Source of the DNA: Candidatus Rifleibacteriota bacterium
GTDB lineage: Bacteria > Muiribacteriota > Ozemobacteria > Ozemobacterales > Ozemobacteraceae
DNA length: 64,000 bases
Direction: 5' to 3'
Assembly (NCBI GenBank): GCA_012517355.1
Contig: JAAYVD010000111.1
Coordinates: forward strand, 62,001 to 126,000
Position numbers and translations under genes: made by a program. Shown here in pieces: positions 4,446 to 63,729 of the stretch; the first letter of the stretch is position 1, and each line of letters begins with the position of its first letter. Under the pieces are notes generated by a model. It saw only the letters and a program-made list of their open reading frames with translations, was not told the origin of the DNA and did not search any database.

Positions 4446-4967
4446 CTACTCCTTCCCTTCCCGGGGACGCAGGGCCCTGGCCTGGCTCAAGACGAAGCCC
4501 AGTTGCCCGCTGAAAAAGCTTCCGATGGATTGGCATTCCGCCTGGAACTGCTTGTCGGCGGGCCGGAGGGCAGCGGCCAGGGCAGTGAGGAGCCCGGGAA
4601 GAGGCTCCTCCTGGACGGCCCGGTCGAACACCGCGGTCACCGCCGGCGCCCGGAAGGGGATCCAGGGGTTGTCGGGGAACCGTTCCCGCGCGAGGGTGGC
4701 GAGGCTGTGCAGGAGCCCGGGGTGATGGAAGACCTGGACGCGGGTGAGGACGAACAGGCGCATGAACCCGACCTTGAAGGCCGCGTGGTCGGGCGAGTCC
4801 TGTTCCAGGGCCCGGAGCAGGGCCTCGACCCGGCCCGGGTCCCCGGCGGGGTTGGCGGTGGCGAAGGCCGCCGCGAGGTCCTCCCGGGGCGGGACGGTGA
4901 ACGCCTCCGGGAAGAACCGCTCGAACGCCTCGCGCGGGCCCAGCGGCCGCGGGCAGGAGGATGACAT
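4446..4967 (-). CDS. Unknown 173-aa helical protein inside the hut operon
   Basis: I do not recognise this protein. It is predicted cytosolic and mostly helical, with Leu- and Ala-rich amphipathic segments, an aromatic cluster near its middle (VGFMRLFVLTRVQVFHHPGLL), no signal peptide and no membrane span. It contains no obvious metal or nucleotide motif. It sits between ftcD (16-base gap upstream) and hutI (two bases downstream) in a tightly packed histidine degradation operon, so a role in that pathway is likely. The operon lacks a recognisable formimino-THF cyclodeaminase (FchA), which is also all-helical. I see no sequence resemblance, so a link to that activity would be speculation. The codon usage (G/C third positions) matches the neighbours. 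Confidence 0.75.
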   Translation of the reverse strand: MSSSCPRPLGPREAFERFFPEAFTVPPREDLAAAFATANPAGDPGRVEALLRALEQDSPDHAAFKVGFMRLFVLTRVQVFHHPGLLHSLATLARERFPDNPWIPFRAPAVTAVFDRAVQEEPLPGLLTALAAALRPADKQFQAECQSIGSFFSGQLGFVLSQARALRPREGKE

Positions 4968-24540: not shown

Positions 24541-24661
24541 GAGACTTCAGCATTTCGACAGAAACCTCGAGGACGGCAGGGGAAAGGAAGACAGGGGGGA
24601 AATGGCGAAGGGATTCGCCAGCTCATAAGGCCAATCAGCATCGATGGGGAGATGAAGAACG
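24541..24661 (+). repeat. Family B dispersed repeat, copy B1
   Basis: About 120 bp shared with 36560-36682 at roughly 85% identity by eye. Conserved blocks include GCATTTCGACAGAAACCTCG, GGGGAAATGGCGAAGGGA and AATCAGCATCGATGGG. Internal stems are TTTC-GACA-GAAA and GGCGA-AGGGAT-TCGCC. It lies between the receiver-ATPase gene and copA. The rest of this 342-base gap contains no gene. Confidence 0.75.
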
Positions 24662-36559: not shown

Positions 36560-36682
36560 GGAGACTTCCGCATTTCGACAGAAACCTCGAGGGAGGCAGG
36601 GGAAGGGGAGAAAGGGGGGGAAATGGCGAAGGGAGTCGCCAGCACGATCTGCGCAATCAGCATCGATGGGTGGATGAAGAAC
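36560..36682 (+). repeat. Family B dispersed repeat, copy B2
   Basis: Second strong copy of the 24541-24661 element, in the gap between two glycosyltransferase genes. It retains GCATTTCGACAGAAACCTCG and the stem GGCGA-AGGGAG-TCGCC. Just before it, 36468-36520 contains an ACCACCACCGGGACGCAGA-type string reminiscent of the CACAGAG repeat near 48.9 kb. Confidence 0.75.
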
Positions 36683-36734
36683 GTGAAAACCCCCACCGGG
36701 AGAATGAGGCGCGGGGAATGAGAGACGGAGAAGC

Positions 36735-37943
36735 ATGAAACGGTCGTCAGCCGGGCTCCGGCCGCCGGTCCTGTTCGTGGCGCCGGTGGCCTGGGATGGC
36801 CTGCGACAGCGGCACCAGGCGCTGGCCGAAGAACTGGCCAGGGCCGGTTACCGGGTGGCCTATCTCAACCCCCTCATCGGAGGCGGGTTCGGCCTCACCA
36901 CCACCTTCGCCATCCTTGATGAAAGCCCGGGACAGGGAAGCCAACCCCTCGACCATGCTCCCGGAATCCGTGTGCTCGACCTGCGCGTCCCCTTCCGGGC
37001 GGCCGCTTGGCCTGGATTGCAGCGGATCGCCGCCCGCCTGGCGGCCGGGCTGCTCGGCCGGGCTGGCCACCTCACCCCCCGCCACCTGGTCTGGATCGCC
37101 GATCCAGCCATGGCCGGCCTGGTCTGCCGCCCCCACCGGGGAGCTGACCGACACGTTATCGACAGGGCTTCCCCCTTGCCGCCCCGGATGGCCGCGCGCA
37201 CCGCGGGGTTCGCGCCGGGCACGGGGGCCCTCGTCTACGACCGGTGCGACCGACATGGGACCTTCCCCGGCCAAAGGCCAGGGCCGTGGCAGGCCTACGA
37301 ACGGCTGTTGCTGGCGCGGGCCGGGCTGGTCCTGGCCACGACCGAAGACCTGCTGCCGGCGGCCGCGGCCACCCCCGCCCGCCGGCTGCTGGTGCCCAAC
37401 GCCGCCGCTCCCGACCTGCTCCGCGAACCCATCCCCGCCCGCCCCCCGCCCCCGCCCCTGCGGGTGGTCTCGGCCGGCGCCCACTACGAATGGGTCGATA
37501 TCGGCTGGCTCGACCGCCTCGCCGGGCTGCCGGGAATCGAGCTGCACCTGGCCGGGCCCGGCCGGGGGGAGGCCTTCGCCAGACTGGTTCGCCGCCCCGA
37601 CGTGACCGGCCACGGGGTGCTCGACCGCGCCGGCCTCCGGAGCCTGCTGGACCGCTGCCACGTAGGAGTGGTCCCCTTCCGCGACCTGCCCCTGACCCGG
37701 GCGGTCGATCCCGTCAAGGCCTACGAATACGCCGCCCGGGGCCTGCAGGTGTGGGGAACCGACCTGCCCTCGTTGCGCCGCCACCCTTTCGTCGACCGGT
37801 GCCTGGACCTGGACGCCCTCGGGCCCGACCTCGTCGCCAACACGATCCGGGGCTGGGAAGGCCGCCGCCCCCCTCCGCCGCCTCCCACCTGGACCGACCG
37901 CATGGCGGGCCTGCTGCCGCACCTCGAGGCCTTGTCGGCATGA
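36735..37943 (+). CDS. Glycosyltransferase (GT4-like) carrying an in-frame family A repeat
   Basis: 402 aa, GT-B type. The N-terminal domain begins with VLFVAPVAWDGLRQRHQALA, and the C-terminal domain has VVSAGAHYEWVDIGWLDRLA and the donor-site region DPVKAYEYAARGLQVWGTDL. This resembles the TuaH/WcaI-like transferases of surface polysaccharide synthesis. Between PHRGA and LVYDRCDRHG lies an extra segment of about 30 residues (with SPLPPRMAARTAGFAPGTGA) that is exactly the translation of family A copy A5. Removing it restores the usual strand that leads to the conserved YDRCD. GGAG precedes the ATG. Its stop overlaps the next start (ATGA). Confidence 0.85.
   Translation: MKRSSAGLRPPVLFVAPVAWDGLRQRHQALAEELARAGYRVAYLNPLIGGGFGLTTTFAILDESPGQGSQPLDHAPGIRVLDLRVPFRAAAWPGLQRIAARLAAGLLGRAGHLTPRHLVWIADPAMAGLVCRPHRGADRHVIDRASPLPPRMAARTAGFAPGTGALVYDRCDRHGTFPGQRPGPWQAYERLLLARAGLVLATTEDLLPAAAATPARRLLVPNAAAPDLLREPIPARPPPPPLRVVSAGAHYEWVDIGWLDRLAGLPGIELHLAGPGRGEAFARLVRRPDVTGHGVLDRAGLRSLLDRCHVGVVPFRDLPLTRAVDPVKAYEYAARGLQVWGTDLPSLRRHPFVDRCLDLDALGPDLVANTIRGWEGRRPPPPPPTWTDRMAGLLPHLEALSA
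37146..37235 (-). repeat. Family A palindromic repeat, copy A5 (inside glycosyltransferase gene)
   Basis: Reverse-oriented copy of 90 bases, i.e. 30 codons, so the frame is kept. Reverse complement reads GCGCGCGGCCATCCGGGGCG at the core, then GATAACGTGTCGGTC in the third stem. Confidence 0.8.
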
Positions 37944-39289
37944 GCATCCTCGCGGTCGGCTTCTTCGGCGAGGGCAACCTCGGAGATGAGGCGATCCTCG
38001 AAGGCCTCGCCGCCAGCCTGCCCGCCGGGTTCACCCTGACGGTGACCGCCGGGTCCCGACCCCTGGGGGCCCCGGCCGCCCGCATGCCGCGGCGGGGCCT
38101 GACCGCCTGGCCGGCCTTCCTGCGGGCGTTGCGGGGAACCCGCCAGGTCGTCTTCACCGGGGGCATGCTGCAGGACTGGTCGTTCGACGGGGTGGTTTTC
38201 TACGCACTGCGGATGCTGGCTTCCTCCCTCGCCGGCCGGCGGCCCGGCCTGTGGGGGGTCGGCCTCGGGCCTTTGCGGCATCCCGCCGCCCGCGGTATCG
38301 CGGCCCGCCTGCTTCGCCACGCCGGCCCGGTCTGGGTGCGAAACGAGGGGTCGGCCCGCCTGTTCCGGGAACTGACCGGCCGACCGGCCCGCCTGGGGTG
38401 CGACTGGTCGTGGGCCATCCCCGACCCGTCGCCCGACCAGGCCTCACCTGCCGGGGAACCGGGTGGCCGACCACCGCCGCCCGCGGGCGCCGATGACCGC
38501 CCAGTCCCTCCCCTCACCCCGCCGCCCGCCTCATCCCCGGTGGCGGCTGGGCACGACGGCCCAGGGGTCTGCCACCGGCGCGGGAATGTCCTTCCAGATT
38601 TGGCAGGAGCGGTCTCCCAAGCACGCCCCGGGCGGCCCGATGGCGAGGGTTCCCTCCTGCCGCCACCGATGGCGGCGCGCAATCCCAGGTTCACCCATGG
38701 CCAGGGGGCCACCCGGCCCGCCGGCGGAAGGATCGGCCTGAATCTCCGCCCCTGGATGGATGGACGCTTCCTCGAGCAGGCGCGCCAGGCCTTCGGAGGC
38801 CGGCCACCCAGGGACCTGTTGGGGGTCGCCGCCCGGACGGAAGATGCCCGCCTGCTGCGCGCCACGTTTTCCGATCTCGAGGTGCGGGAACCAGCGTCCT
38901 TCACCGAACTGATGAGGCTGGGGCGCGGGCTGTCGGAAGGCTGGGCCATGCGGTTCCACGTCGTGCTGGCCTGGCTGCGCGCGGGCCTCCCGGTCGTGCC
39001 GCTGGCCTACGACGACAAGGTCGACGGCCTGTGTCGCGAGATCCGGCCCGCCGGCCCCGGCCAGCCACCCGCGCCCGCCTACGCCGCGGAGCCCACCACC
39101 ATCGCAGGACCCACCACCAACGCCAAGACCGCCACCCCAGGAAGGCCCACCGCCGTTGCCAGGACCGCCACCCCCGCGGCCCAAGCTGCCGCCGGCCACG
39201 TCCGTGCCTCCGAAGCCTGGGTCTCCGAAGCCGGCCGGCGCCTTCTCACCATGCGGGCCGCCCTGTGGGAAACCTGCCAGGCGGGATGA
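37940..39289 (+). CDS. CsaB-like polysaccharide pyruvyltransferase family protein
   Basis: 449 aa, GT-B-like fold. The N-terminus MSILAVGFFGEGNLGDEAIL has the family GN-x-GDEA motif. It is followed by VVFTGGMLQDWSF, where CsaB has GGGSLLQD, and the second domain starts at GGRIGLNLRPW. The motif SEGWAMRFHVVLAWLRAGLP, with the family His, is present. CsaB adds ketal pyruvate to cell-wall glycans from PEP. Between the domains (about residues 165-255) is a long Pro/Gly-rich insertion that includes family A copy A6. A second low-complexity Thr/Ala/Pro stretch lies near the C-terminus. The start overlaps the preceding glycosyltransferase stop by four bases. Confidence 0.85.
   Translation: MSILAVGFFGEGNLGDEAILEGLAASLPAGFTLTVTAGSRPLGAPAARMPRRGLTAWPAFLRALRGTRQVVFTGGMLQDWSFDGVVFYALRMLASSLAGRRPGLWGVGLGPLRHPAARGIAARLLRHAGPVWVRNEGSARLFRELTGRPARLGCDWSWAIPDPSPDQASPAGEPGGRPPPPAGADDRPVPPLTPPPASSPVAAGHDGPGVCHRRGNVLPDLAGAVSQARPGRPDGEGSLLPPPMAARNPRFTHGQGATRPAGGRIGLNLRPWMDGRFLEQARQAFGGRPPRDLLGVAARTEDARLLRATFSDLEVREPASFTELMRLGRGLSEGWAMRFHVVLAWLRAGLPVVPLAYDDKVDGLCREIRPAGPGQPPAPAYAAEPTTIAGPTTNAKTATPGRPTAVARTATPAAQAAAGHVRASEAWVSEAGRRLLTMRAALWETCQAG
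38634..38715 (-). repeat. Family A palindromic repeat, copy A6 (inside CsaB-like gene)
   Basis: Reverse-oriented. The core GCCGCC-ACCGAT-GGCGGC reads on the plus strand near 38660-38677; the third stem is degenerate. Read in the same frame as A5, giving SLLPPPMAARNPRF against SPLPPRMAARTAGF. Confidence 0.7.
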
Positions 39290-57593: not shown

Positions 57594-59065
57594 GTGCCCT
57601 CCACCTCGAAACGCAGTCCTGACGCCTTTCCGCTCCGATCGGTGTCCGGTTGCGAATCGGCGATCCGGAGGCGGCGGCGGGGGAAGGCTGTCTGCAAACC
57701 GGCCACCAGGGCTTCGAGCCGGGCATACCCGTCGGCCACCCCCCGCACGCGCCAGGCCGCCCCGTTCCCCGCCACCACGTCCAGCCGGGTCACCGTGGAA
57801 GCCTGGCGGACCACGGCGTCGAGCACCTCGAGCCAGGGCAGGTCGGGAACCACGGCCGTCGGGCCGGCCGGACGGGCCCCATCCCGCAGGAAACGGCGGG
57901 TCTGGGCCACCGGCTCGACGGCCCGGTCGCGCGGGAAGACCCCGGTGTAGGCGCTGGCCATCGCCGCCGTGAGGTCTTGGCGTTGCCGGGTGAGACGCCG
58001 GCATTCCCACCACAGGACGCCGTGGAAGACCAGAATGCCGGCCAGCACCGCGGCGATGGCCGCCTGCCAGGCGGCCCGCCGCCCTTCCTGCCGCCGGATC
58101 TCCCGCCAGGCGGCCAGGTCGGCGCCACCGGGTTCCCCGAGCAACCGCTCCAGGGCCCCATACACCGCACCGCCTTCCTCGAGCAGGCGGCAAGCCACCG
58201 GTTCTGCGGTGGCCCAACCGCGGGCGATCAGCGGCAGGGGCAACCCCCGGCCCTCGAGGGCGATCCGGCCCAACCGGCCATCGTCGTCGAAACAGGCCAG
58301 CCCGGCCGATCCCGGGGCGGTGAAGCGCACCACGGCCCGGCCGGACGGGGCCGGCACCAGAAAGGCGTCGGGCACCACCAGCCGCCAGCGCTCCGCGGCG
58401 AGGTTCCAGGCAGCCGTCTCGCTGCCGGGAAAGGCCAGGCCGGTGGCCCGCCACTGGTCCCCGGCCGGCTGCACCAGCCAGGCGAAGCGCCAGCCGGCAT
58501 CGATCCCCACGAACACGTCGCGCAGCAGTTCCGGCAGCACCCGCCGCACCTTCACCGGGTCGCCGAAGGGCAGGGGGACGGCGAACGGCAGGCCGCGGGA
58601 AGCCGGCACCACCAGCACCTCGACCGGTTCCTCGTCCGGTTCGGGGCCGGTCCCTTGGGCAATGGTCGCGGCGGGCGCCCCGCCGCTGGCCGCCTTCGAT
58701 TCACCGGCGGGTTCCCCTCTGTTGGTGACCCCGGCTCCAACTGCGCCTGGAACCGCGGGTTGGAGGCCTTCCCTGTCGCCGGCCGGCACGGGGTTGGTCA
58801 CACCACTCCGCCCCACCGGAGGGCGGGGAGAACCGCCGGGTTTGCCAGGTGAAGGAGGGCCATCTGGGGAATCGGGGATTCGGGCGGGGGGCGAGCCCTC
58901 GGGAAGTGACAGGAAAGGCTCCCGGGCATCCCCGGGCCTGGCGACTCCCTGGCTGGTCGCGGGAGTGGCCGGTGGGGTGACGGGATGCAGCCCGCCGTCT
59001 CCGCCGAGCAGGAAGACCCGCTCCCCGTCGGGGGTCGGGAAGGTCAGGCGAAAGACGGTCGTCAC
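57581..59065 (-). CDS. gspL: Type II secretion protein GspL-like with Pro-rich insertion
   Basis: 494 aa. The start MTTVFRLTFPTPDGERVFLL is followed by a Pro/Gly/Ala-rich stretch of roughly 100 residues. A cytosolic actin-like region follows (from about residue 135, EEPVEVLVVPASRGLPFAVP). One membrane helix (AIAAVLAGILVFHGVLWW, about residues 335-352) and a periplasmic ferredoxin-like domain complete it. GspL links the ATPase GspE to the inner-membrane platform. The low-complexity insertion near the N-terminus is unusual. The start is the GTG at 59065, overlapping the gspK stop (GTGA). Confidence 0.88.
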   Translation of the reverse strand: MTTVFRLTFPTPDGERVFLLGGDGGLHPVTPPATPATSQGVARPGDAREPFLSLPEGSPPARIPDSPDGPPSPGKPGGSPRPPVGRSGVTNPVPAGDREGLQPAVPGAVGAGVTNRGEPAGESKAASGGAPAATIAQGTGPEPDEEPVEVLVVPASRGLPFAVPLPFGDPVKVRRVLPELLRDVFVGIDAGWRFAWLVQPAGDQWRATGLAFPGSETAAWNLAAERWRLVVPDAFLVPAPSGRAVVRFTAPGSAGLACFDDDGRLGRIALEGRGLPLPLIARGWATAEPVACRLLEEGGAVYGALERLLGEPGGADLAAWREIRRQEGRRAAWQAAIAAVLAGILVFHGVLWWECRRLTRQRQDLTAAMASAYTGVFPRDRAVEPVAQTRRFLRDGARPAGPTAVVPDLPWLEVLDAVVRQASTVTRLDVVAGNGAAWRVRGVADGYARLEALVAGLQTAFPRRRLRIADSQPDTDRSGKASGLRFEVEGTWEP

Positions 59066-60060
59066 GGCACCTCCGCGAACCGCACCACCCGGCAGTGACC
59101 GTACCGGTCCCGCCGCACCAGGGCCGACAGCCGCCGCTCGACCTCGCCGACCCGCCCCACCGCCTCGACCCGGAAGCAGGTCGAGAAGACCACGAACTGC
59201 TCCCCGTACTTCCGGGGCAGCCGCGGGTCATAGGTTACCAGAAAGTCGCGCAGTTCACCCACCTTCCGGATCGGGACGCGGGCGAGCAGGGTGTCGAAGA
59301 AGGCGCGGCGACGCTCCTCGTCGTAGCCCGGCGGACCGGGCACCGCCTCGACGATCTCGCGGCGCGCGGTGTTGAGGTTGACCAGCCCGTCGCCGTGGAC
59401 GGTCAGCAGGTCCTGCAGCCCGGGGCGGCCGCCTTCCCCCTCGAACAGGCCCGGGGTAATGCCGGGGACGTCGAGCAGTTCCCGCAGGTCCAGCAGGCGC
59501 CCGTTGCGGGGCCGCCGGCCGCCGTAGGATTCGAACTCGGCCCCGAAGGGCCGGGGCAGGTCGTCCTCGTCGACGTAGTCGAGGATGCGCTGGGCCAGGC
59601 AGAGCGGGCCGTCGACGGTGAGGTCCTCCCCGAGGAGGGTGCCGGTGGCGGTGATGCCCAGGCCGAGCCGGCGGAAGAGATACACCAGCGACTCCTCGCG
59701 GGCGGTGTTGACGTTGAGCCGGCCGGCCTCGTCGATGATCCTGACGCTGAACGACCCCCCGCCCACCGGCACCTGGGTGAAGGCGGTCATCTCGGTGTAG
59801 CGGTACCAGTCCTCGGTGAGATCGTCGCTGTCGTTGCGGTCGCGGAACAGCAGGAACAGGGCCATCGACAGGCCGGAGCGGGCGGTCAGCCGGGCCTGCA
59901 TCGCCTGGTCGAGCCGGGCGTCGAGGCGGGCCTGCAGCCCGGCGGTCCGCAGCCAGGAGTAGAACAGGCCAACCAGCAGGGCCAGCAGCAGCACCGCGGC
60001 CGCCAGCGCCATGCCCCCCCGCGGCCGGGCCGGACCCCGAAAAGGTTTCGACCGGCTCAC
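59062..60060 (-). CDS. gspK: Type II secretion minor pseudopilin GspK
   Basis: 332 aa. The basic leader ends in RPRGG, followed by the hydrophobic pilin helix MALAAAVLLLALLVGLFYSW. GspK lacks the usual Glu5, and here too it is absent. The large periplasmic domain has the GspK signatures IIDEAGRLNVNTA, RILDYVDEDDLPRPFGAE and GLVNLNTARREIVEAVPG (helix-hairpin-helix-like). GspK caps the GspI-GspJ-GspK tip. Start is the GTG at 60060, four bases after the gspJ stop. Confidence 0.95.
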   Translation of the reverse strand: MSRSKPFRGPARPRGGMALAAAVLLLALLVGLFYSWLRTAGLQARLDARLDQAMQARLTARSGLSMALFLLFRDRNDSDDLTEDWYRYTEMTAFTQVPVGGGSFSVRIIDEAGRLNVNTAREESLVYLFRRLGLGITATGTLLGEDLTVDGPLCLAQRILDYVDEDDLPRPFGAEFESYGGRRPRNGRLLDLRELLDVPGITPGLFEGEGGRPGLQDLLTVHGDGLVNLNTARREIVEAVPGPPGYDEERRRAFFDTLLARVPIRKVGELRDFLVTYDPRLPRKYGEQFVVFSTCFRVEAVGRVGEVERRLSALVRRDRYGHCRVVRFAEVP

Positions 60061-60064
60061 GGCC

Positions 60065-60961
60065 TCACCATTCCGCGGGCAGGAGGGCGGCGGCGGGCAG
60101 CACCCGGCGTTCCCTGACGTCCTCGCCCAGGACCTGGACCACCTCCATGCCCAGGGCCCGGCCCGGTTCGAGGGGGCCCACCCCGCCGGACAGGGCCACC
60201 CATTGCCGGCCGTCGTGTCGCAGGAACCGGACCTCGGCCACCCCGTTCAGCAGGACCTGCGACCGCGGGGCCTCCACCGTGGCCACGCCGTGGGCGAGCT
60301 GGCTGACGGTGCGGACCAGAACGTGGCGGGCCGGGTCGAACCGCCATTCCACGCGGTTGAACCCGCGGGGCATGTCGTCGCGGGCGATGATCTCCCGGCG
60401 CGACGTTGAATAGGCCAGCATCCCCGATCCGCCCAGGATGGTGAAGGAGGGATCGGCCGGGTCGTGCCGGATCTCCCCGACCTCCTTGCGGAAGACCTCG
60501 AGACAGAATTCCGCCTCCCGCGCCGTGCGGCCGGCCGTGCGCGCCGCCCGATCGAGGCGCGCCATCCCGTACAGCAGGCCGTTGGCGAGGGCGAACAGCA
60601 CCGCGGTGAGAGCCAGGGCCACCCAGAGTTCGACCAGGGTGAACCCCGACCGCCCGCCCACGGCCGGCCACCAGCCGGAAGGGAAAGGCGGAGCGGCCCG
60701 ACCACGGCAGACCCCTGGTGCGTTTCGGAGAAACGCGGCTTTCAGGGGACGGCCCCCTTGCGACGCGCGAAACCGGCGTTTCGCGCCGCCATCCGTGGCG
60801 GCAAGGGGGCACTTCCGACGTCGTGTCGGTCGGGCAGGCCCTCCCCTCGCCCAGGCGTGAACCGGGGGTTTCGCGCCGCCATCGATGACGGCCAGCGAAG
60901 GTGTCCCGTCCCGACGCGGCCGGAAGCCGTTCGGGGTGGTGTGAGGATGGGGAGGGTTCAT
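60065..60961 (-). CDS. gspJ: Type II secretion minor pseudopilin GspJ with repeat-filled presequence
   Basis: 298 aa. The prepilin motif is GRSGFTLVELWVALALTAV, with cleavage after Gly106 and Glu at +5. The mature part (ARDDMPRGFNRVEWRFD and later strands) fits GspJ. The gene starts at the ATG at 60961, overlapping the gspI stop (ATGA), which supports that start by coupling. The resulting presequence is 106 residues, whereas normal ones are under about 30. Most of it is translated from two family A repeats (DGGAKRRFRASQGGRP and DGGAKPPVHAWARGGP). A downstream in-frame GTG six codons before the site lacks a Shine-Dalgarno. The presequence would be removed by the prepilin peptidase. Confidence 0.88.
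   Translation of the reverse strand: MNPPHPHTTPNGFRPRRDGTPSLAVIDGGAKPPVHAWARGGPARPTRRRKCPLAATDGGAKRRFRASQGGRPLKAAFLRNAPGVCRGRAAPPFPSGWWPAVGGRSGFTLVELWVALALTAVLFALANGLLYGMARLDRAARTAGRTAREAEFCLEVFRKEVGEIRHDPADPSFTILGGSGMLAYSTSRREIIARDDMPRGFNRVEWRFDPARHVLVRTVSQLAHGVATVEAPRSQVLLNGVAEVRFLRHDGRQWVALSGGVGPLEPGRALGMEVVQVLGEDVRERRVLPAAALLPAEW
60745..60835 (+). repeat. Family A palindromic repeat, copy A9 (in gspJ presequence)
   Basis: Near-consensus. It shows CGCGAAACCGGCGTTTCGCG, core GCCGCC-ATCCGT-GGCGGC and third stem CCGACG-TCG-TGTCGG. It is antisense to gspJ. A separate small stem CGTTTC-GGA-GAAACG adjoins at 60721-60735. Confidence 0.9.
60847..60915 (+). repeat. Family A palindromic repeat, copy A10 (shorter, in gspJ presequence)
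   Basis: Tandem neighbour of A9 with GCGTGAACCGGGGGTTTCGC and core GCCGCC-ATCGAT-GACGGC; the third stem is lost. It is read in the same frame as A9 (DGGAK in both peptides). Confidence 0.8.
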
Positions 60962-61335
60962 GTCTCGGGATACTCCGCCAAGTAGGTCTCCAGCATGATC
61001 CGGTCGCGATCGTAGACCGAGAACCACTCGACGGTCACATTCACCTTGTACAAACCGACGAACCGTGTCTTCTGAAACTCGACGGGTTCGAGGGAGACCC
61101 GGTAGTTGAAATTCGGAAAATCGCTTCCGAAGCCGCCCACCTGGTGTCCGGCCCGCAGGGGGCCGGTTTCCAGTTCCACGAGTTTCCGCTGGGCGAGGGC
61201 CCGCGCCGTACGGGCCAGGTCGGCCTGGGTCTGCCGCCGGCCAACCGCGGTCACGCCCCCGGCCAGGACGGCCGCCACCAGCGCCAGCAACCCCAGGGCG
61301 AGCAGCACCTCGACCAGGGTGACCCCCCGTCTCAT
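60958..61335 (-). CDS. gspI: Type II secretion minor pseudopilin GspI
   Basis: 125 aa. Very short leader MRRG, then VTLVEVLLALGLLALVAAVL with Glu at +5. The mature domain contains RTARALAQRKLVELETG (helix) and VNVTVEW. GspI nucleates the pseudopilus tip with GspJ and GspK. Its start overlaps the gspH stop (ATGA) and its stop overlaps the gspJ start (ATGA), so it is tightly coupled on both sides. This short leader contrasts with those of gspH and gspJ. Confidence 0.93.
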   Translation of the reverse strand: MRRGVTLVEVLLALGLLALVAAVLAGGVTAVGRRQTQADLARTARALAQRKLVELETGPLRAGHQVGGFGSDFPNFNYRVSLEPVEFQKTRFVGLYKVNVTVEWFSVYDRDRIMLETYLAEYPET

Positions 61336-62051
61336 TCGGGTTCGACCTCCCCGTCGTAGGGCCGGAACCGGATCCGGTGCCGTTCCCCGGTCTCGCGGTC
61401 CCGCACCTCCAGGGGTCCGGGGTCGCAGAATCCTTCCGGGGCGGCCCACCAGCCGGCGTCCAGGCCGGTCACCTCGCACCAGCCGGGCAGGGGGTGGGGT
61501 TCGAGGAACAGGCGGTCGACCGTCGGACCGGAGGGTCCCCCATCGCGCACCTCGAGGCGGCCGTCGACGAGGCGGACGACCCGGGACCGGCCGGAGAAGA
61601 CGGCCGAGGACCAGCTTTCCCGGCAGAGGAGTTCGAGGCGACGGGTTTCCCGATCCAGGCGGGTGCGGCCGATCCAGCCGGCGAGTTCCGGCAGGAGAAG
61701 CCCGGCTCCCATGGCCAGCAGGGCCATCACCACGACCAGTTCGACCAGGGTGAAACCGGAGCGGACGCAGGAATAAGGGGAAGGAAGGGGCGCAGGAGAA
61801 TGGGAGAAAAGGGGGAAGGGGCGAGCGGTGACCTGGCTTCGAAGGGGAAGCGAGCCTTCGGCGGAAGAAGGAAGATGGGAATGCGTGAGGGAAAAAGAAG
61901 AAAGAGGAAATGAAGGGCAAGGAAGGGGCGCAGGAGAATGGGAGAAAAGGGGGAAGGGGCGAGCGGTGACCTGGCTTCGAAGGGGAAGTTTCCCGCCCCA
62001 AGAGACTGGGAGGGAAGTCTTTCGGGGTTGGCCCCGGGGCGGGTGAGGCAT
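61332..62051 (-). CDS. gspH: Type II secretion minor pseudopilin GspH with duplicated long presequence
   Basis: 239 aa. The prepilin motif CVRSGFTLVELVVVMALLAM is followed by a GspH-like domain (LLCRESWSSAVFSGRSRVVR). Cleavage is expected after Gly99. No ATG, GTG or TTG occurs in frame between the site and the ATG at 62051, so the presequence must be about 99 residues or start at a non-standard codon. It contains the peptide LRSQVTARPFPLFSHSPAPL twice, encoded by the 70-bp direct repeat. The ATG at 62051 lacks a Shine-Dalgarno but lies 17 bases after the gspG stop. Confidence 0.82.
   Translation of the reverse strand: MPHPPRGQPRKTSLPVSWGGKLPLRSQVTARPFPLFSHSPAPLPCPSFPLSSFSLTHSHLPSSAEGSLPLRSQVTARPFPLFSHSPAPLPSPYSCVRSGFTLVELVVVMALLAMGAGLLLPELAGWIGRTRLDRETRRLELLCRESWSSAVFSGRSRVVRLVDGRLEVRDGGPSGPTVDRLFLEPHPLPGWCEVTGLDAGWWAAPEGFCDPGPLEVRDRETGERHRIRFRPYDGEVEPE
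61781..61988. repeat. 70-bp exact direct repeat in gspH presequence
   Basis: Copies at 61781-61850 and 61919-61988 are identical, at a period of 138 bases (46 codons), so the frame is kept. Purine-rich on the plus strand. Confidence 0.92.
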
Positions 62052-62068
62052 CGTGAGACGGGGTGCGG

Positions 62069-62515
62069 TCAGCGGCGGCCGAGGTTCCAGTTCTCGATGT
62101 CGGCGAACTCGCCTTCGCCGCCCTGGACACCGTCCTTGCCGTGGCTGACGAGGTCGAACTCCTTCAGGTGGATGCCGGGGGAGAGGTAGACGAACTCGTG
62201 GTCCCAGGCGTCCTTGGGCAGGATGCCCTTCTCCAGGTAGGGGCCCTTCCATTTGGCGGGTGCGGGGTCGGTGGACGGCTTCTCGACGAGGGCGGCCAGC
62301 CCCTGCTCGGTGGTGGGGTAAAACCCGTTGTCGGCGTAGTAGAGGGCCAGCGCGTTCTCGAGCACGCGCATCTGCACCTCGGTGGTCTGGCGGCGGGCCT
62401 CCTCGGTGCGGCCCATCAGGCGGGGCAGGACCAGCCCGGCCAGCAGGCTGAGGATCACCAACACCACCAGCATCTCGATCAGGGTGAAACCACGGGTCAG
62501 CACGGGTCGTTGCAT
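62069..62515 (-). CDS. gspG: Type II secretion major pseudopilin GspG
   Basis: 148 aa. Leader MQRPVLTRG is cut before FTLIEMLVVLVILSLLAGLV, with Glu at +5. The mature part has the GspG pattern VLENALALYYADNGFYPTTE, DAWDHEFVYLSPG and the C-terminal Ca-site region HGKDGVQGGEGEFADI. It is the main fibre subunit of the pseudopilus. AAGGAG is nine bases before the ATG. The leader is of normal length. Confidence 0.97.
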   Translation of the reverse strand: MQRPVLTRGFTLIEMLVVLVILSLLAGLVLPRLMGRTEEARRQTTEVQMRVLENALALYYADNGFYPTTEQGLAALVEKPSTDPAPAKWKGPYLEKGILPKDAWDHEFVYLSPGIHLKEFDLVSHGKDGVQGGEGEFADIENWNLGRR

Positions 62516-62532
62516 CTTGCGTTCTCCTTGGG

Positions 62533-63729
62533 TCAGAACAGCCTGTTCATCTCGTAGACGGGCAGCAGCACGCCGACCATGATCCCCCCCACGACCACGC
62601 CCAGAACCACGATCAGCAGAGGTTCGAGCAGGGTGAGGAAGAGGTCGGTGCGCGTGCGGTTTTCGGCCTCCAGTTCGCCGGCCACCGTAGCCAGCAGGCC
62701 CCCGAGGTCCCCCGCCGTCTCGCCGGCCTCGACCATCTGCACCACGAAGCGGGGAAAGGCGGCCGAGCGGGTCAGGGCGGCGGCGAACGGCTCGCCCTTC
62801 TCGAGCGCCCCCTCGACGAGGGTCAGGGCTTCGCGCTCCAGTTCCGAATCGGACGAGTCACGGGCCACCCGGACCACCTCGAGCAGCGACACCCCGCAGC
62901 GCAGCATCATGCCGGTGTTGCGGGCCCAGGCCTCGAGCCGCCACCCGTCAAGGAAGGGGCCCCACAGGGGAAGGGCCTGCTGGCAGCGTTCCCAGGTCCG
63001 GCGCCAGGCCGGCCTGGCGAGGGCTGCGCGGCCGGCCACCCAGCCGGCCAGCGCCACGGCGAGGGCGGGCAGCCCCCACCCCTTCAGCAGCGCGCCGCCC
63101 TGGATCAGCAGGCGGGTCGGCCAGGGCAGGCGGCCGTGCAGGTCGGCGAACACCTGGGCCACGACCGGGACCAGGTAGCCCAGCAGGAAGGCCACCACCC
63201 CCGCTGCCACCACGAAGGTCACGGCCGGGTAGGCGATGGCCGACAGGAACCGGCGCCGGTGCTCCTGCTGGCGGGCCAGGTGGTCGGCCAGTTCCCCGAA
63301 CGCGGTGTCGAGCCGGCCGGTGGTCTCCCCCACCCGCACCACCGCCAGGGACCAGGCGTCGAGCACACCGCCGAGGCCGGTCAACACGGCCGACAGGTCG
63401 CGCCCCTTCTCGATGCCCTCGCGGATGGCCTGCAGCACCGGGCGGCGGCCGGACCAGCCGTCCTGGACCTCGAGGCTGGCCAGGGCGCGGGCGAGCGGGA
63501 TGCCGCCGCGCAGCAGGGCGGCCAGCTGCCGGGAGAACCGGGCGGCCTCGCCGAGGGAGAACGCCGGAAAAGACGCCGGGGCCGCCCCCGCCTCGCCCGC
63601 GGTCAGCTCGAACGGGGTCAGGCCCTGCGCCTGCAGGCGGGCCCTGGCCTCGCCGGGTTCGGCGGCCTCGACCACCCCGTCGCACTCGGCGCCGGACCGG
63701 TCGTAAGCCTTGTAGGTGAACGACGGCAT
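62533..63729 (-). CDS. gspF: Type II secretion inner-membrane protein GspF
   Basis: 398 aa. N-terminus MPSFTYKAYDRSGAECDGVV, then two homologous cytosolic helical domains (ARFSRQLAALLRGGIPLARA and ARNTGMMLRCGVSLLEVVRV). Three membrane helices complete the fold, the last being LLEPLLIVVLGVVVGGIMVG. GspF is the platform core that contacts GspE and the pseudopilins. It follows gspE by five bases and precedes gspG by 17. Complete and of normal length. Confidence 0.97.
   Translation of the reverse strand: MPSFTYKAYDRSGAECDGVVEAAEPGEARARLQAQGLTPFELTAGEAGAAPASFPAFSLGEAARFSRQLAALLRGGIPLARALASLEVQDGWSGRRPVLQAIREGIEKGRDLSAVLTGLGGVLDAWSLAVVRVGETTGRLDTAFGELADHLARQQEHRRRFLSAIAYPAVTFVVAAGVVAFLLGYLVPVVAQVFADLHGRLPWPTRLLIQGGALLKGWGLPALAVALAGWVAGRAALARPAWRRTWERCQQALPLWGPFLDGWRLEAWARNTGMMLRCGVSLLEVVRVARDSSDSELEREALTLVEGALEKGEPFAAALTRSAAFPRFVVQMVEAGETAGDLGGLLATVAGELEAENRTRTDLFLTLLEPLLIVVLGVVVGGIMVGVLLPVYEMNRLF

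Follow-up and report, generated by a model that had tools for sequence, protein, structure and literature searches.

The window, a 64,000-nucleotide stretch of contig JAAYVD010000111.1 from a Candidatus Rifleibacteriota bacterium, carries at about 59-64 kb a minus-strand T2SS operon with the gene order F-G-H-I-J-K (Table 1). Its gspJ gene has an unusually long open presequence region, within which a sequence-only reading of the same DNA had placed 2 tandem copies of a dispersed palindromic repeat (family A); both copies are indeed present there. The leader of the nearby gspH gene contains 2 copies of a different repeat (family B), whereas gspG has an ordinary leader.

Table 1. Genes, candidate starts, and repeat copies of the T2SS operon (positions are those of the window).
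Feature	Position	Strand	Remarks
gspK	59062..60060	-	NF037980, E 9e-30, under curated cut-off
gspJ, T2SS minor pseudopilin	60065..60961	-	298 codons counted from the coupled ATG
gspJ presequence region	60647..60961	-	105 codons ahead of the Gly codon (60644-60646)
Alternative in-frame GTG start, MGGRS/G	60659..60661	-	GGTG 7 nt upstream
Family A palindromic repeat, near-complete copy	60747..60834	+ (reverse to gspJ)	88% to reference copy
Family A repeat, diverged copy	60837..60924	+	64% to reference copy; 90 nt apart, same reading frame
ATGA, gspI stop/gspJ start overlap	60958..60961	-	First in-frame ATG after gspI
gspI	60958..61335	-	Weak gspI/XpsI NCBIfam matches under cut-off, and operon position
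gspH	61332..62051	-	Weak NCBIfam gspH match; 98 codons from ATG 62051 to Gly
Family B repeat copy (pyrimidine-rich on coding strand), gspH leader	61775..61850		
Second family B copy, gspH leader	61913..61988		138 nt away, same frame
gspG	62069..62515	-	TIGR01710, E 7e-51; ordinary leader, 8 codons ahead of Gly
gspF	62533..63729	-	TIGR02120, E 1e-86, under curated cut-off

The GspJ protein matches the N-terminal methylation motif G/FTLVE, including Glu5, narrowly above threshold (PF07963, 21.5 bits versus a cut-off of 21.2), and does not reach the curated GspJ models (TIGR01711, E.003, 17.4 versus 64.85 bits; PF11612, 14.5 versus 28 bits). When its AlphaFold2 model, built together with eight relatives, was used for a structure search, the 13 best PDB matches were EpsI:EpsJ, XcpV:XcpW, and GspK-I-J entries (E 3e-6 to 3e-4). 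Predicted fold and gene order, not the curated models, make GspJ the best name for the protein. Two Peptidase_A24 (prepilin peptidase) genes are present in the genome.

From the ATG at 60961, which overlaps the gspI stop, 105 codons without a stop lead up to the prepilin Gly (GFTLVELW) as residue 106, confirming the coordinates of the sequence-only reading. The sole other candidate start is GTG 60661, in frame and 5 codons ahead of Gly. Including Gly, the leader would thus comprise 106 residues from the ATG or 6 from the GTG, compared with the 6-51 residues published for class III signal peptides (PMC6916266), a range that agrees with the earlier remark that leaders of this length are not typical. 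The further claim that the ATGA overlap fixes the start holds in part: a similar overlap occurs in all relatives examined, but the GTG is also in frame. GC content at the 3 codon positions is flat across the presequence (.73/.73/.71 versus.77/.50/.91 in the body of the gene), and its codon use, judged by a score that was trained on the window itself and also underlies the gene-border calls, resembles that of non-coding DNA (-0.42 bits per codon, neighbouring genes scoring +0.5 to +0.9). Codon statistics were dropped as the arbiter of the start site, because the gspH leader scores equally badly and yet has no other start. The length of the open frame was dropped as stand-alone evidence as well, since 19% of composition shuffles keep a frame as long as the gspJ leader open and length alone is not significant. 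Residues 1-100 are disordered in the AlphaFold2 model (pLDDT about 40-50), a strong fold is predicted for the repeat region between gspI and gspJ (z -2.4), and an Rfam search over 60000-62600 matched no family.

The family A unit is 81 nt long, palindromic, multi-armed, and often tandem, and its consensus is free of stop codons in all six frames and net basic in each (charge +2 to +7). Allowing up to 3 mismatches, its core matches 289 times in the 7.1-Mb genome (0 in a reversed control); within the genus, the family is nearly confined to this genome, a second genome having ten mostly diverged matches and the third none. Profile searches delimit the copies in the gspJ leader to 60751-60826 (E 1.5e-21) and 60847-60895 (E 1e-6). 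In the 88-nt alignments the 2 copies together span 56% of the leader, and their profile cores span 40%, so that the earlier statement that they encode most of the extra residues goes slightly too far. Among 69 sampled family A clusters, the majority are extragenic or at gene edges according to a simple codon score, and 6 lie in frame within apparent genes. One of these genes (L003:38-2587, minus strand) is an 849-residue open reading frame (ORF) with a GlcNAc 2-epimerase domain match and three tandem in-frame family A units (VDGPLAVRETGV...SDLEPVG). Other copies lie at 37151-37229, in frame in an ORF (36735-37943) without a Pfam match (SPLPPRMAARTAGF), and at 38637-38710, within the frame of a polysaccharide pyruvyl transferase domain (37244-39289). 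A direct-repeat pair located 12 kb apart (24541-24661 and 36561-36683), consisting of a 62-nt plus a 30-nt segment with 89-93% identity, is a possible third dispersed element.

At least 107 matches to the PF07963 prepilin motif were found in the genome, from which L066 was left out as the same gene as L132; a series of closely similar prepilin genes lies on contig C149. The distance from Gly to the nearest start has a median of 8 codons, and family A lies in or adjoins the leader of 10 of the 106 prepilin genes. Besides gspJ, in which the nearer copy stops 104 nt short of Gly, nine genes carry family A within 120 nt of Gly, and in eight genes the copy ends just 5-16 nt ahead of the Gly codon. 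No family A copy lies as close as 120 nt to any of 64 response-regulator domains (Fisher p.0075), a positional control that covers one family only; many of the comparisons made in this analysis were picked post hoc. Family A density is 0.67 hits/kb in the prepilin leader zone, while the prepilin bodies, 30.7 kb in all, have none. Two of these genes, L050 (ATG 33 codons before Gly) and L188 (GTG 55 codons before Gly), contain no ATG, GTG, or TTG between repeat and Gly; the remaining prepilins with family A have a further start within or after the repeat and are each ambiguous singly. Good ribosome sites lie ahead of the repeat in L170, L175, and L165.

For prepilin genes with a recognisable upstream gene, we compared the three frames for a start near the upstream stop that remains open to Gly. 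Such a start was present in the Gly frame of 7 of the nine repeat-bearing genes and in neither of the other frames (0 and 0); the corresponding counts for other prepilins in which stop and Gly are separated by over 60 nt were eight, zero, and zero. As untranslated regions would give like counts in the three frames, the 7:0:0 distribution supports translation of the repeat-bearing leaders as a class. The gspJ gene is one of the seven, and the test by itself is therefore no proof of the gspJ start.

Family B, defined by a genome search and reading of the leaders, has 54 matches across the genome, many of them short. Between ATG 62051 and the Gly codon, gspH contains no ATG, GTG, TTG, CTG, ATT, ATC, or ATA, leaving ATG 62051 as the only possible start, although the codon score of the intervening leader is as poor as that of gspJ. 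The L165 leader, which starts at an ATG 32 codons ahead of Gly behind a GGAGGTG site and has no nearer ATG, GTG, or TTG, also holds family B, and the repeat is read in the identical frame in both leaders (ARPFPLFS-SPAP). In a relative, the gspH gene of L091 (Gly at 4578) has 39 open codons before Gly without ATG, GTG, or TTG, and may use a non-standard start.

The sequence-only reading had looked to sister genomes without repeats for comparison. The two same-genus genomes have no recognisable gspJ, and no sister genome with gspJ but without the repeats was found; a search of the named genome contigs with the GspJ protein as query retrieved no relative, and one with query A2 retrieved four, two listed as Candidatus Riflebacteria and two under different names. 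Among Riflebacteria relatives, each of the 7 in which the gspI-gspJ junction is complete has a gspI-overlapping ATG in the GspJ frame, open over 9 to 76 codons before Gly. In G010, G022, and G014, which have the three longest leaders among the relatives (58, 76, and 29 such codons), the leader frame stays open in.007,.025, and.081 of shuffles, respectively, less often than would be expected were it open by chance, and the proposed frame scores highest among the three sense frames. Most relatives lack a good nearer gspJ start, and L034 is the only one with a GTG 5 codons ahead of Gly. The long leader of G022 contains no dispersed repeat, and that of G010 just a short motif. Given its recurrence in 7 of 7 relatives at such different distances from Gly, the coupled start looks ancestral, with a leader length that appears free to vary.

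Prepilin leaders remain cytoplasmic and are then removed (PMC10191384; PMC6916266). We propose, with a probability of roughly 0.7, that gspJ is translated from the gspI-coupled ATG and that its leader was enlarged by in-frame repeats and is removed by the peptidase. Two in-frame 81-nt palindromic copies would largely account for a class III leader of 105 residues before Gly, which would form a cytoplasmic, disordered, basic tail until the prepilin peptidase cuts after residue 106. The mature pseudopilin would stay unchanged and the insertion would be selectively neutral; other prepilin genes of the genome would have undergone like insertions. The repeat suits a leader because its unit consists of whole codons, is stop-free in every frame, and is net positive throughout. 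The anatomy, recurrence, positional clustering, and reading-frame bias of the repeats are established here from the sequence data of one draft genome. The earlier suggestion that the presequence is a tolerated landing site fits these data, as in-frame repeats recur in other prepilin leaders at a precise position and with a clean frame test; for gspJ itself, it presupposes the predicted start and processing, and it leaves room for an active benefit of the repeats.

The principal alternative is that the repeats occupy an untranslated gspI-gspJ gap, that gspJ starts at GTG 60661 (MGGRSG), and that any effect of the hairpin is on the mRNA, through its stability or the relative expression of gspI and gspJ. 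The GTG, with GGTG 7 nt upstream, would give a normal leader, and the non-coding-like composition, the strong predicted fold, and the mostly extragenic location of family A clusters are all in keeping with such a gap. We consider it unlikely in view of the overlapping in-frame ATG in all 7 relatives, mostly without a good nearer start, and of the 7:0:0 frame bias; moreover, it offers no explanation for gspH, L050, L188, and L165. Improbable, too, is the use of both starts, the coupled ATG for a long form and the GTG for a short one: the two share a frame, and PilA of Geobacter sulfurreducens provides a precedent with its 10- and 29-residue leaders (PMC6201914), but the nearby start is not conserved in the relatives apart from L034. 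An assembly artefact around a high-copy repeat, conceivable in a draft genome of 184 contigs with hundreds of repeat copies, is hardly credible given that the T2SS gene order and frames are unbroken on both flanks, that the copies are diverged and non-identical, and that many independent loci share the architecture.

REP sequences, associated with RAYT transposases, are high-copy short palindromes that are mostly extragenic. Family A is likewise high-copy, palindromic, and mostly extragenic, but its unit is larger and multi-armed; mobilisation of the REP/RAYT kind was set aside, as no family A match occurs in the 3.3 kb around the sole Y1_Tnp gene (within about 1.5 kb). A closer parallel is offered by the Rickettsia palindromic elements, which lie in frame within protein-coding genes (PMC10969869). 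Like these in architecture, family A is dispersed and palindromic, in part adding peptides in frame and in part extragenic; unlike them, it has an 81-nt unit that is often tandem and open in all six frames, and it recurs just ahead of the prepilin cleavage site, in the part that is removed. GspJ and GspH resemble proteins with class III signal peptides in their basic N-terminus, the Gly or Ala that precedes a hydrophobic stretch containing Glu5, and the A24 peptidases in the genome, but would differ from known leaders in their predicted 105 and 98 residues before Gly, composed partly of genomic repeats. Geobacter PilA is also a long-leader prepilin and is still processed, as is predicted for GspJ, although its leader is far shorter and no repeats are reported there. 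A short search of the open-licence literature found no description of palindromic repeats concentrated in cleaved leaders.

Collectively, the best reading of family A is that of a Rickettsia-palindromic-element-like repeat apparently tolerated in cleaved class III leaders, which suggests that proteins can take up selfish DNA in such a leader without harm. The broader idea that cleaved prepilin leaders are a genome-wide safe harbour, with an element that evolved to be harmless to proteins and two unrelated families accumulating independently before the cleavage site, is tentative, and we rate it somewhat below even odds. One warning for annotation is that the starts of repeat-adjoining prepilin genes cannot rest on codon statistics. 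If the proposed account of gspJ is true, it would roughly double the known length of prepilin leaders, provide a natural test of the N-terminal tail that SRP/Sec targeting and the prepilin peptidase accept, and show where selfish palindromic DNA can sit in genes while leaving the mature protein unharmed.
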